In this document: positions 34,794 through 44,249 of the stretch, piece by piece
Layout: each line of letters starts with the position of its first letter
How positions within the stretch are numbered: position 1 is the stretch's first letter
Notes under the pieces: model-generated
Told to the model about the DNA's origin: nothing
Databases searched by the model: none
The model's input: only the letters and a program-made list of their open reading frames with translations
Assembly (NCBI GenBank): GCA_902557235.1
Contig: CACDZR010000002.1
Location: 62,001 to 126,000 of the forward strand
Length of the DNA stretch: 64,000 nt
Origin: an uncultured Pelagibacteraceae bacterium
Lineage (GTDB): Bacteria; Pseudomonadota; Alphaproteobacteria; Pelagibacterales; Pelagibacteraceae
Reading direction: 5' to 3'
Program-made: the position numbers and the translations under genes

Positions 34794-36950
34794 ATGACTG
34801 CTTTAAAAAAACAACATAAAGAAGAGTTGAAATCTAAATATATAAATAGAGAGCTTTCTTGGTTAAAATTCAACGATAGAGTACTTTTAGAGGCGCAAAA
34901 TATCGAAAATCCTCTTTATGAAAGAGTAAAGTTTTTATCAATTGCTGGGTCTAATCTAGATGAATTTTTTATGGTCCGTGTAGCTGGATTATATAGTCAA
35001 ATAAAACAAGAAGTTGACTCACTAAGCTCTGATGGTTTGACACCTGAAGAGCAAATGAATGAGGTAGTGCTTGAAACTAAGAATCTATTAAAAAAACAGA
35101 ACAAAATTTTTATTCAACTGATTATGGAATTAAAAAAAAATAATATCAATTTAGTTAAACCAGTTAATTTAAATACTAAGGATAAAAAAAAACTTTTAGA
35201 AATATTTAAAGAAGAGATTTACCCTTTATTAACACCATCAGCAATTGATCCTGCACATCCATTTCCATTTATAATCAATCAAGGAAGAGCAATTGTAATG
35301 AAGTTAAGAAAAAAAAATAAAAAAAGGATTTTAAACTCAATAATAGTAATACCAAAAGCATTATCTAGATTTATTGAAATTGAGTCTTCAAAAAATCATA
35401 AGAAATTTGTGATTCTAGATGATGTAATAAGTTTTTTTGCTAATGAAATTTTTCCAGATCATGATTTAGAAAAGAAAATGATTTTTAGAGTAATAAGAGA
35501 CAGCGATGTAGAGATTCAAGAGGAAGCAGAAGATTTGGTTAGATCTTTTGAATTGGCTTTAAAAAGACGTAGAACGGGTGATATTGTTCGTTTAGAGGTT
35601 CTTGAAAATAGTGATAACGAACTGATAAGATTTATAACTAATAAATTAGATATAAATCCTGACTATATTTATGATGTTGCTGGCCTTGTTGGAATTCAAG
35701 ATATAGATCAAATATGTAAAGTAAAAAATCCAAAATTAAGATTTAAACATTTTACACCTAGAGAAGTTGAAAGATTAAAAGAATATAATGATAATTTTTT
35801 TGAAACTATTAAAAAGAAAGATTTAGTTGTTCATCATCCTTTCGAAACATTTGACTCAGTAATTGAATTTTTAAACCAAGCAGCAAATGATAAAAAAGTT
35901 ATAGCTATAAAACAAACTCTATATAGAACAACTCTAGACTCACCTATTGTTAAAGCTTTAATAACAGCTGCAGAAAACGGAAAAACAGTTACCGCTTTAA
36001 TTGAAATTAAAGCTAGATTTGATGAGGAAGCTAATATTCAACTATCAAGAAGTTTAGAAAAAGTAGGTGTTCAAATTGTTTATGGTTTTGCTAAATATAA
36101 AACTCATGCAAAATCATCATTAGTTTTAAGAAGAGAACAGGGTAAAATACAAACTTATTTTCATTTAGGAACTGGCAATTATCATCCAGTAAATGCTAAA
36201 ATTTATACTGATTTGTCTTTATTTAGTTGTGATAAGAAAATGGCATCAGATGTTGAAAAGTTTTTCAATTATGTAACAGGATACGCAAAACCAAAAAATT
36301 TAAATAAAATTTCTATTTCGCCAGTAAATATGAGGCAAACCTTAAATGAAAATATTGATGCTGAAATTAAAAATTCTAAAAATGGAAAATTTGCAGCTAT
36401 TTGGGCAAAAATGAACTCTTTAGTAGATCCAGAAATTATTGATAAATTTTATGAAGCTTCGAATGCTGGTGTAAAAATTCATTTATTTGTAAGGGGTGTT
36501 TGTTGTTTAAGACCAGGAGTAAAAGATAGATCAGAAAACATATTTGTAAAAAGTATCATAGGAAGATTTTTAGAGCATTCTAGAATTTACTGCTTTAGTA
36601 ATGGTACAAAAAAAATGCCTAATAGAAATGCAAAAGTATATATTTCGTCAGCTGATTTAATGCCGAGAAATTTAAATCGAAGGGTAGAACTTCTAGTCCC
36701 AATTGAAAATGAGACTGTTCATGAACAGATCTTAGATCAAATAATGTTGGCAAATTATCTTGATACTAATCAGAGCTGGGAACTTGAAGCTGATGGTAAT
36801 TATAAAAAAATTAAATATAGTAAGAGCGATTCCTTTTCAGCTCATGAATATTTTATGAATAATCCGAGCTTATCTGGAAGAGGTAAAGCTAAACTAAGAA
36901 TGCAGCCTAAACAACTGCACTTAAGATTGATTAAAAGTGGAAGTAATTAA
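34794..36950 (+). CDS. ppk: Polyphosphate kinase
   Basis: INRELSWLKFNDRVLLEA, HHPFETFDSVIEFLNQAA, AIKQTLYRT, HLGTGNYHP. Confidence 0.96.
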   Translation: MTALKKQHKEELKSKYINRELSWLKFNDRVLLEAQNIENPLYERVKFLSIAGSNLDEFFMVRVAGLYSQIKQEVDSLSSDGLTPEEQMNEVVLETKNLLKKQNKIFIQLIMELKKNNINLVKPVNLNTKDKKKLLEIFKEEIYPLLTPSAIDPAHPFPFIINQGRAIVMKLRKKNKKRILNSIIVIPKALSRFIEIESSKNHKKFVILDDVISFFANEIFPDHDLEKKMIFRVIRDSDVEIQEEAEDLVRSFELALKRRRTGDIVRLEVLENSDNELIRFITNKLDINPDYIYDVAGLVGIQDIDQICKVKNPKLRFKHFTPREVERLKEYNDNFFETIKKKDLVVHHPFETFDSVIEFLNQAANDKKVIAIKQTLYRTTLDSPIVKALITAAENGKTVTALIEIKARFDEEANIQLSRSLEKVGVQIVYGFAKYKTHAKSSLVLRREQGKIQTYFHLGTGNYHPVNAKIYTDLSLFSCDKKMASDVEKFFNYVTGYAKPKNLNKISISPVNMRQTLNENIDAEIKNSKNGKFAAIWAKMNSLVDPEIIDKFYEASNAGVKIHLFVRGVCCLRPGVKDRSENIFVKSIIGRFLEHSRIYCFSNGTKKMPNRNAKVYISSADLMPRNLNRRVELLVPIENETVHEQILDQIMLANYLDTNQSWELEADGNYKKIKYSKSDSFSAHEYFMNNPSLSGRGKAKLRMQPKQLHLRLIKSGSN

Positions 36951-38958: not shown

Positions 38959-39450
38959 TTATAGTTTTTTAAGAACTGTTATTAAATAAAAAAACATTGC
39001 TATATGAGAACTATTATTGAATTTTTGATTTAATATTAATTTAAATATCTCTCTTTGATTAAAAAGATGAATTCTAATACCCTGTTCTGGTTTCGAAATT
39101 TTAATTAAGTCTTCTGTGTAATAACCAGTAATTTTAGTAGTTAGTCTTCCAGGTTCGTTATAAAAAGTTATTATTTTACTCAATTTTGATCTTGATCTAT
39201 ATCCTGTTTCTTCTCTTAATTCCTTATATGCTGATTGGAGAGTTGTTTCCTTTTTTTCCACTATGCCAGAAGGAAACTCGTAATTAATTTTATTAATTGG
39301 AACTCTTTTTTGAGATACTACTATATATTTGTCTTTAAGCTTAGGTATTACTAATGAAAGATTAGAAGTTTTAAGATAATGATAAAACTCTTTTTTCTTA
39401 AATTTTTTGTTAATTAAACTTATTCGATTGGTAAGTTTTATATTTTTCAA
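38959..39450 (-). CDS. NUDIX hydrolase
   Basis: Nudix-box-like FPSGIVEKKETTLQSAYKELREETGY. Confidence 0.88.
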   Translation of the reverse strand: MKNIKLTNRISLINKKFKKKEFYHYLKTSNLSLVIPKLKDKYIVVSQKRVPINKINYEFPSGIVEKKETTLQSAYKELREETGYRSRSKLSKIITFYNEPGRLTTKITGYYTEDLIKISKPEQGIRIHLFNQREIFKLILNQKFNNSSHIAMFFYLITVLKKL

Positions 39451-40106
39451 TTTTTCTCTAAAAATAACTTTTTAACAATAAATACAGCAATTAACATTCC
39501 AATAAGCTCAGCTAAAATATAATAAGGAGTATTTAAATAACTAATACCAGTAAACGACTCTGTAAATGTTCTAGCAATAGCAACAGCTGGATTGGCAAAT
39601 GAAGTTGAAGAAGTAAACCAATAACCAGCAGTAATATAAAGACCAACGCTAGCTGCAACAGCAATTTTGCCTGACTTCATTGAACCAAAAATTATTATTA
39701 TTAGTCCTAATGTTGCTATTACCTCAGACGTGAATATGTAAACCCCATCTCTTGACTTAGTAGATAATTCATAAATTTCATGTTCAAAAAAGAAATTAGC
39801 TAAACCAACACCAATCAAGCAACCAACCAATTGAGCAATGATATAGTAGGGTAATAGTTTCCTTTTTAATTTGCCTGTTATTGCCATTGCGATACTTACA
39901 AATGGATTAAAGTGAGCTCCTGATACATCAGCAAAAACTGTAATAAGCACAAATAAACCTGCTCCTGTTGCTATAGTATTAGCTATTAACATCACAGCAA
40001 CATCATTAGTTAAGTTTTCAGCCATTAAACCTGAACCAACAATAATCATTACTAAAAAACAACTTCCTAATAGTTCAGCAAGAAAATAGCGACTTTTATT
40101 TTTCAT
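39447..40106 (-). CDS. MIP family aquaporin/aquaglyceroporin (AqpS-like)
   Basis: AELLGSCFLVMIIVGSG, GAHFNPFVSIA (first NPx), FANPAVAIARTFT (second NPA). Confidence 0.88.
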   Translation of the reverse strand: MKNKSRYFLAELLGSCFLVMIIVGSGLMAENLTNDVAVMLIANTIATGAGLFVLITVFADVSGAHFNPFVSIAMAITGKLKRKLLPYYIIAQLVGCLIGVGLANFFFEHEIYELSTKSRDGVYIFTSEVIATLGLIIIIFGSMKSGKIAVAASVGLYITAGYWFTSSTSFANPAVAIARTFTESFTGISYLNTPYYILAELIGMLIAVFIVKKLFLEKN

Positions 40107-40527
40107 AAAGCAGTTCCTTTATTCTTTTATGAATATTATTGTAAACTTTTTCTATTATTTCATCTTTTTTATTTAAGTCGTTTGTTTCATTAAGTAATTT
40201 AACAGGATCCTCTATATCCCAATGAATTATCTGATCTTTATTTGGCCAAATAGGACAGACTTCGTTATTGGCATTATTACAAACTGTAATCACATAATCC
40301 ATTTTAATTTGACCATTAATAAACTCATTAAAATTTTTAGATCTATAATTTGAAAGATCATAATGTTTTGATAATAAATAATTCTTCACATCTTCATTAA
40401 TTTTTCCTGTTGGATTACTCCCAGCACTAAAACCTTTATACATATCGTCATACTCGTTATTTATTATACTTTCAGCAATAATACTTCTTGCTGAATTACC
40501 TGTGCAAACAAACAATATATTCTTCAT
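40096..40527 (-). CDS. arsC: Low-molecular-weight phosphatase-type arsenate reductase (ArsC-like)
   Basis: NILFVCTGNSARSIIAESI P-loop, DYVITVCNNANNEVCPIWP; next to aquaglyceroporin. Confidence 0.82.
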   Translation of the reverse strand: MKNILFVCTGNSARSIIAESIINNEYDDMYKGFSAGSNPTGKINEDVKNYLLSKHYDLSNYRSKNFNEFINGQIKMDYVITVCNNANNEVCPIWPNKDQIIHWDIEDPVKLLNETNDLNKKDEIIEKVYNNIHKRIKELLYEK

Positions 40528-41161: not shown

Positions 41162-41551
41162 TTATTTGGTTATACATTTTTTGCATAAACCAAAAAATTC
41201 AAGATTATATTTACTATATTTCATACCAGCTTTATCTTTAAAATTTGATAGATATTTTGAGAGACTAGAATTATTAATCTCTGTTACTTTTTCACAACTT
41301 TCACATATAGAAAAAGCAGTAGCTTTTGACACCTGACAACTCGAATTTTGACATGCAATAAAAGCGTTTCTACTTTCAATTTTATGAATTTTTCCAATTT
41401 CAACTAACTTATCTAATGCTCTATAAACTTGTAGAGGAGCTTTAATTCCTTTTTTTTGAACATTAAAAAGAATTGAATAGGCTTTCATTGGTTCAGGTGA
41501 TTTATCAATTATATCGAAAATAATTCGCTGATTTTTTGAAAGAGTATGCAT
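41162..41551 (-). CDS. zur: Fur-family regulator, probable Zur
   Basis: LSKNQRIIFDIIDKSPEPMKAYSIL, CESCEKV / CKKC metal motifs; next to znuBC. Confidence 0.85.
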   Translation of the reverse strand: MHTLSKNQRIIFDIIDKSPEPMKAYSILFNVQKKGIKAPLQVYRALDKLVEIGKIHKIESRNAFIACQNSSCQVSKATAFSICESCEKVTEINNSSLSKYLSNFKDKAGMKYSKYNLEFFGLCKKCITK

Positions 41552-41575: not shown

Positions 41576-42379
41576 TTAATTTTTCAATTTAATCGACTGT
41601 TTAATGTTTAATAATGATAAAATAAATAGCAATAAAGATGCTGCTATAATTGAAGGTCCAGATGCAGTATTAAATTCAAGTGAAGAAAATAATCCCAAAA
41701 TCACAGACAACAATCCACCTATAATTGAATACATTACCATTTTCTGAGGGCTTGAAGAGATATTTCTAGCCATTGCAGCTGGTATGATTAACATTCCTGT
41801 AATTAATAATAAACCAACCATCTTTATTGAAATAGCAATAATCGCTGCCATCAGAATAGTAAAAATAGCTTTTGCACGATCAGGATTTAAACCTTCTGCT
41901 TCAGCCAATTCATAATTAACTGTTGATGCAAACAAAGGTTTCCAAATTAATTTTAGAACTAAGAGGATTAATGCTCCTCCAATCCATATTATCAATAGAT
42001 CATCAATTGTAACAGCTAATATATCTCCAAATAATAATCCCATAATATCAAATCTGATAAATGATAAAAAACCAATGACCACAAGACCTATTGCCAGTGA
42101 TGAGTGAGCTAAAAGACCAAGCAAAGCATCACCCGGAAGATTAGTTCTTTTTTGAAGTTGTATTAAAGTTAAAGCTATTAAAGACGAAATAATAAATACT
42201 GAGAATGCTATATTGAATTCCATTGAGTAAGCTAGTGTTACTCCAAGTAATGCAGAGTGGGCTAAAGTATCTCCAAAATAGGATAATCTTCTCCAAACAA
42301 CAAAACATCCAAGAGGTCCAGTAACTATGGCAACTCCAATACCTGCTATTAAAGCTCTTATAAAAAAATCATCTAACAT
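41576..42379 (-). CDS. znuB: Zinc ABC transporter permease
   Basis: ABC-3 family; VTGPLGCFVVWRRLSYFGDTLAHSALLGV. Confidence 0.93.
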   Translation of the reverse strand: MLDDFFIRALIAGIGVAIVTGPLGCFVVWRRLSYFGDTLAHSALLGVTLAYSMEFNIAFSVFIISSLIALTLIQLQKRTNLPGDALLGLLAHSSLAIGLVVIGFLSFIRFDIMGLLFGDILAVTIDDLLIIWIGGALILLVLKLIWKPLFASTVNYELAEAEGLNPDRAKAIFTILMAAIIAISIKMVGLLLITGMLIIPAAMARNISSSPQKMVMYSIIGGLLSVILGLFSSLEFNTASGPSIIAASLLLFILSLLNIKQSIKLKN

Positions 42380-43126
42380 TTAATTTTTCTTTATTTCACC
42401 TTCACTTGTATGAACATGATCATGTCTATGCTCATATCTAGATAAAATTTGAGAAGCCTGTTCACCAAACAAAGCTTTGTATTCATTATTTTTCGCTACA
42501 TCCATTGGTGATCCTGAACAACAGACATGACCATTCAAACAAACAACATGATCTGTTGCACTCATTACGGTATGTAAGTCGTGAGATATTAATAAAATAC
42601 CACAATTTAATTCATCAGAAATTTTTTTAATTAATTCGTATAAAGCAATTTCACCAGTAAAATCTACACCTTGAACTGGTTCATCGAGTACTAATAACTC
42701 AGGTTTCTTTGAAATGGCTCTTGCAAGTAACACTCTTTGAAACTCTCCGCCAGACAAATCACCTAAATTTTTATCTTTTAGATGAATAACACCAGTTAAA
42801 GACAAGGCCTCATCAATTAATTCATTATTAATGCTTTCTGTTAATACCATGAAATCGTTTACTCTTAGTGGTAGTGTCCAATCAATTGAGATTTTTTGCG
42901 GCACGTATCCAACTTTACTAGTGTATTTTTCTACAGAACCATCAATCTTTTTATAAATACCTAGTGCAATCTTAGCTGTTGTACTTTTACCTGATCCATT
43001 AGGACCAATTAGAGTAACTATTTTCCCTTTTTCAACTTGTAGTGATACTCCTTTGACAAGCCACTTATTATTTAAACTAAAACCAGCTCCATTTAACTTC
43101 ACAAGTATATTCTGATTTGAGCTCAT
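42380..43126 (-). CDS. znuC: Zinc ABC transporter ATP-binding protein
   Basis: IGPNGSGKSTTAKIALG, LSGGEFQRVLLARAI, VLDEPVQGVD, His-rich C-terminus. Confidence 0.93.
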   Translation of the reverse strand: MSSNQNILVKLNGAGFSLNNKWLVKGVSLQVEKGKIVTLIGPNGSGKSTTAKIALGIYKKIDGSVEKYTSKVGYVPQKISIDWTLPLRVNDFMVLTESINNELIDEALSLTGVIHLKDKNLGDLSGGEFQRVLLARAISKKPELLVLDEPVQGVDFTGEIALYELIKKISDELNCGILLISHDLHTVMSATDHVVCLNGHVCCSGSPMDVAKNNEYKALFGEQASQILSRYEHRHDHVHTSEGEIKKN

Positions 43127-43146
43127 ATTATTCCTTGACTTATAAA

Positions 43147-43161
43147 TGTTATATTATTACA
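43147..43161. promoter_or_regulatory. Zur-box-like palindrome 1
   Basis: TGTTATA-T-TATTACA (one mismatch to perfect dyad) between divergent znuC and znuA. Confidence 0.6.
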
Positions 43162-43164
43162 TAG

Positions 43165-43179
43165 TGTTATATTATAACA
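43165..43179. promoter_or_regulatory. Zur-box-like palindrome 2
   Basis: TGTTATA-T-TATAACA, perfect 7+1+7 dyad, centre 18 bp from palindrome 1. Confidence 0.7.
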
Positions 43180-43196
43180 TTTAAATTATACAACAT

Positions 43197-44249
43197 ACGA
43201 AAAACATAAAAAAATTACCATTTATCTTAACAATATTATCATTCTTAACTATTTTTGTACCTGCAAATGCAGAAATTAAAGTAGTTACATCAATAAAACC
43301 AATTCATTCACTAGCTAGTTATTTAATGGATGGGGTGGCAAAACCAGATTTAATAGTGGACGGTTATGCTTCTCCTCACGGATTTGCACTTAAGCCAACG
43401 CATGCGAAAATGTTGCAAGAGGCTGATTTAGTATTTTGGGTTGGTGAGGACTTGGAAAATTTTTTAGAAAAACCATTAAAATCGATTGCCAAAAAAGCTG
43501 AAAAAATTGAATTAATGGAAATTAAAGGGTTAACAAAACTTAAATTTAGAGAGAGAAATATTTTCGAGGAACACGACCATGGACATAAAGAAGATGATCA
43601 CGATGATCATGCCAAGAAAGAGGACGATCATGACGATCACGATCATGACAAAAAAGAGAAAGAACATGGTCATGATGAGCACGGACATGACGATGAGCAT
43701 AAAGAAGATGGTCACGATGAACATGGTCATGAAGGACATGCACACGGTGAACATGATCCCCATATTTGGTTAGATCCAATGAATGCAAAAGTAATTTTAA
43801 GCGAAATGGCAGAGCATTTAATTGAGAATGACTCAAAAAATGAGGCTAAATATAAGGCAAATTTAAAAAAAGGTCATAAAGATTTAGATAAGCTTACTAA
43901 AAAAGTAAAATCAGAATTAAATAAAGATTTTAAATCGATAGTTTTTCATGATGCTTATCAATACTTTGAAAAAAGGTTTGACATTAATGTTTTAGGTGCT
44001 TTTACAGTTAATACAGACGTAATGCCTGGTGCTGAGCAATTAGCTGAAATTAGAGAAGTAATTGAGCATGATAAAGTAAGCTGTATATTTTCAGAGCCTC
44101 AATTTAATCCTGATATCATTAAAGCTGTAGCAAAAGATACTAATGTTGCAACAGGGGTTATCGATCCATTAGGAGCTACTCTTAACCCTGGCAAAGATTT
44201 ATACTTCGATTTAATTGGGAATATGTCTAAATCTTTTAAAGGTTGTTAA
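43197..44249 (+). CDS. znuA: Zinc ABC transporter substrate-binding protein; apparent ACG start (ORF-track ATG at 43326 omits signal peptide)
   Basis: In-frame codons upstream of 43326 give xKNIKKLPFILTILSFLTIFVPANA|EIKVVTSIKPIHSLASYL; His/Asp-rich loop; HDPHIWLDP. Confidence 0.8.
   Translation, partial: TKNIKKLPFILTILSFLTIFVPANAEIKVVTSIKPIHSLASYLMDGVAKPDLIVDGYASPHGFALKPTHAKMLQEADLVFWVGEDLENFLEKPLKSIAKKAEKIELMEIKGLTKLKFRERNIFEEHDHGHKEDDHDDHAKKEDDHDDHDHDKKEKEHGHDEHGHDDEHKEDGHDEHGHEGHAHGEHDPHIWLDPMNAKVILSEMAEHLIENDSKNEAKYKANLKKGHKDLDKLTKKVKSELNKDFKSIVFHDAYQYFEKRFDINVLGAFTVNTDVMPGAEQLAEIREVIEHDKVSCIFSEPQFNPDIIKAVAKDTNVATGVIDPLGATLNPGKDLYFDLIGNMSKSFKGC
43570..43761 (+). repeat. Low-complexity His/Asp/Glu-encoding repeat in znuA (metal-binding loop)
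   Basis: HDHGHKEDDHDDHAKKEDDHDDHDHDKKEKEHGHDEHGHDDEHKEDGHDEHGHEGHAHGEHDPH. Confidence 0.9.

Follow-up and report, generated by a model that had tools for sequence, protein, structure and literature searches.

A private T-to-C change at the start codon of znuA in one Pelagibacteraceae assembly

In one assembly of an uncultured Pelagibacteraceae bacterium, znuA, the gene predicted to encode the periplasmic zinc-binding protein of the ZnuABC transporter, shows ACG at the place of its start codon. We analysed a stretch of 64,000 nucleotides of this assembly (hereafter the window), and we are highly confident that the ACG represents a one-off, private T-to-C change at position 43198, whether an error or a recent mutation, and that it is no evidence for a new type of start codon. 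The apparent case of ACG initiation drops out of consideration, and the window illustrates how one altered start-codon base in an assembly leads a gene caller to truncate an intact transporter gene.

The znuA frame and its locus

The codons from 43185 read ATT ATA CAA CAT ACG AAA AAC ATA AAA AAA TTA CCA TTT, with ACG (43197-43199) directly 5′ of those encoding the signal peptide (AAA AAC ATA AAA AAA TTA CCA). Translated from 43185, the frame begins IIQHTKNIKKLPFILTILSFLTIFVPANAEIKVVTSIKPIHS and is free of stops until the stop codon ending at 44249. An in-frame TAA (43182-43184) lies upstream of the ACG, so no standard start is possible farther upstream, and codon reading found no ATG, GTG or TTG in the frame from this TAA to an ATG at 43326, which shares the frame of the ACG at a spacing of 129 bases. 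The preliminary description had stated that znuA is without a standard start codon ahead of its signal peptide, and this reading bears it out. The open reading frame listed from ATG 43326 encodes 307 amino acids, without the signal peptide and without the start of the mature protein. Inspection of the sequence before the ACG found no Shine-Dalgarno-like stretch in the leader.

Judged by its family matches, the product of znuA (43197-44249, forward strand) is a ZnuA family member, with a predicted role in zinc binding and uptake. It scores above the cut-offs of both NCBIfam NF007091 (286.8 bits, cut-off 268) and Pfam PF01297 (203.7, cut-off 29), ZnuA crystal structures such as 2ogw and 2osv rank with its best sequence matches in the PDB, and it is the sole PF01297 protein found in the searched part of the genome. 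The signal peptide occupies about residues 1-25, and a long loop rich in His, Asp, Glu and Lys is encoded at about 43570-43760. This loop seems variable, in that matches to some relatives split there.

The permease and ATPase genes adjoin znuA, and their best family matches are those expected of ZnuB and ZnuC, yet under the equivalog cut-offs. The gene for the ATP-binding subunit, znuC (42380-43126, reverse strand), diverges from znuA, with NF007090 as its best hit (264 bits, below the cut-off of 306) and a match to ABC_tran; the permease gene znuB (41576-42379, reverse strand) has NF007089 as its best hit, below cut-off, and matches ABC-3 (PF00950). On the same strand, a gene for a Fur-family regulator (41162-41551; PF01475) is probably zur, the Zur family NF008646 being its best hit, likewise below cut-off. 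Between znuC and znuA (43147-43179), alignment of same-genus relatives and box matches revealed two conserved palindromic boxes, TGTTATATTATNACA, which can also be written TGTTATATTAT(A/T)ACA and are near-identical to each other. These are probably Zur operators, and a TTGACT at 43135-43140, a putative -35 element, is conserved as well. Elsewhere in the window (39447-40527), an aquaporin-like gene adjoins a gene resembling those of low-molecular-weight phosphatases and arsenate reductases, as judged by eye; the two are possibly an arsenic detoxification pair.

Start codons of the relatives

At the DNA level, 83 of the 150 related genomes searched gave matches, some of them merely short chance matches, and a protein-level search of named genomes added 80 loci, some of which belong to genomes of the first set. 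Alignment of the leaders, together with frame-based reading, yielded 131 distinct znuA start regions from Pelagibacterales relatives, the window included. ATG stands at the znuA start position in 130 of the 131, the window being the lone exception, and in these 130 leaders it precedes the mature-protein anchor by 24 codons, except in seven, where the distance is 23. The sister locus L004 is 98% identical to the window over 321 bases, and its aligned leader differs at 43198 alone, with T where the window has C; ATG is likewise found in the sisters L088 (AG-908-A06), L073 (AG-904-C22) and L005. Because all other leaders, including that of L004, have T at 43198, the C of the window is derived and private to one assembly, and on these alignments the ancestral start of znuA is exactly the codon at 43197-43199, a conventional ATG.

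These comparisons bear directly on the preliminary description, which had proposed comparing the starts of orthologous znuA genes. The observation that ACG occupies the place of the expected ATG is upheld by the leader alignments, the frame readings and the count of private substitutions, which together assign the ACG at 43197-43199 on the forward strand to the aligned start-codon position. Initiation at ACG as a trait of znuA or of its lineage fails, since all relatives, including the 98% identical sister, read ATG, and conservation of the noncanonical codon in close relatives, the mark of a natural near-cognate start, was not found among the 131 leaders. A conserved ACG start was therefore ruled out. 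Among the three options that the description had left, the noncanonical start falls away, and a recent mutation of the start codon and a base error both still stand.

Error, mutation or alternative start

How might the private base have arisen? Apart from its start, the body of znuA is intact, and its divergence from the nearest sisters is nearly all synonymous, with seven synonymous changes and one nonsynonymous change relative to L088 and 25 and one, respectively, relative to L156 (both alignments begin just past the changed base). Across the 13.5 kb that this genome has in common with three sisters, its private substitutions comprise 77 synonymous, 16 nonsynonymous (the start change counted) and 10 intergenic differences, a spectrum that is normal for purifying selection and does not point to an assembly heavily burdened with errors. 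Our survey of lesions in the genome itself spans the window, and when its 61 open reading frames were compared with those of sisters, none but znuA was seen to have lost its start in this way. General decay of znuA and an error-rich assembly were thereby set aside.

We also scanned the neighbouring genes for lesions in distinct copies of znuC (136), znuB (80), zur (75) and a dehydrogenase gene (28). One clear lesion was found in about 319 copies, in L029 (about 112-116), where a frameshift after residue 213 breaks znuB. Two automatic flags were dropped: in the zur of L147 the stop comes just one codon early, and in the znuA of L031 upstream ATGs exist and the break in the match falls in the variable His-rich loop. 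One start lesion in 133 copies of znuA is in line with this low background in related assemblies. In a different part of the window (34794-36950, corresponding to L158 5349-7506), one open reading frame is divided in the sister genome G043 into two overlapping frames of 99-100% identity, a split that is a probable frameshift or assembly error.

Nearly all of the named relatives bear AG- or AH- names and are single-cell genomes, and by analogy the assembly of the window, which comprises 34 contigs and is 83% complete, is probably also a single-cell genome. For the workflow behind these single-cell genomes, 5 mismatches and 3 indels per 100 kb have been reported (PMC11247762). By simple arithmetic, the mismatch rate translates into about 1.5e-4 wrong start codons for each gene, or some 0.15 in a genome of 1000 genes. 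For the 61 genes of the window, the same 5 errors per 100 kb predict only about 0.01 start-codon errors, so that an error of this kind is itself a rare event here, a rarity that is offset by the selection of this site through a search for anomalies. The private synonymous divergence of the genome is, by a rough estimate, a few per cent per synonymous site, so that even a strongly counterselected start loss could match the error rate per gene. Furthermore, znuA was present in 50% of the surveyed SAR11 genomes (PMC4771312), so its loss, or a null allele, seems tolerable in the group. We accordingly give roughly even chances to an amplification or sequencing error at 43198, probably in a single-cell genome, and regard a real and very recent mutation that removed the start, in the cell or its lineage, as a serious possibility; error and real mutation are about equally likely.

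The best account is that the znuA start of this lineage is a conventional ATG, the second base of which appears as C instead of T in one assembly. Should the C be genuine, the synthesis of ZnuA would be expected to fall strongly, with loss of function as the likely outcome, because the leader has no Shine-Dalgarno-like sequence and offers no other start upstream. In Escherichia coli, initiation at near-cognate codons, ACG among them, is only weak, and a product made from ATG 43326 would be without a signal peptide and so unable to reach the periplasm. The window would then hold a recently arisen allele, with lost function or low expression, of a gene that only about one half of SAR11 genomes possess.

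Several other ways of starting znuA were weighed. A real ACG might be used, as a near-cognate codon with formyl-Met, at a low but useful rate that tunes ZnuA down; Hecht et al. (2017) are said to have seen low-level initiation at near-cognate codons in E. coli, and the gene body is intact, with almost no amino-acid change relative to the nearest sisters. However, a very recent change would leave the body equally intact, which deprives that argument of its force, ATG is kept by every other distinct relative, and the leader offers no Shine-Dalgarno-like sequence. We consider such use of the codon unlikely, and equally unlikely that this is a real single-cell variant in which weak translation from ACG makes znuA an allele that segregates in SAR11 and lowers the expression of a zinc transporter. 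Initiation at the upstream ATT (43185) or ATA (43188), also raised in the preliminary description, appears highly improbable: both codons are in frame and lie 3′ of the TAA, but in sisters that share the leader, ATG occupies 43197 and the signal peptide begins MKNIKKLP; there, both codons precede the start and are not required, and other relatives do not keep them as starts. Finally, no standard start codon precedes ATG 43326 in the frame, and the upstream frame might be open by chance, but this ATG is residue 48 of the extended frame, in which the Pfam match already begins at residue 33, and in the relatives the same signal peptide and N-terminus follow an ATG. The chance that it is the true start is negligible, and we ruled it out on the family match and the alignment of relatives.

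Comparison with known systems

The znuA of the window resembles genes with natural bacterial near-cognate starts in having a codon other than ATG, GTG or TTG at the place of initiation, and differs from them in that its codon is not conserved in the lineage; to our knowledge, natural near-cognate starts, for example that of infC, are conserved in their own lineages. The locus agrees with the znuA locus described for SAR11 (PMC4771312), with znuA, the remaining transporter genes and a gene of the Fur family in conserved synteny, and no difference was seen beyond the start codon. Compared with ZnuA of ZnuABC (NF007091, PF01297; 2ogw, 2osv), the product scores above the curated cut-off and has a signal peptide and a charged, His-rich loop, and its gene lies beside a divergent znuCB with a Fur-family regulator nearby; the start codon, ACG for ATG in the window, is the only departure.
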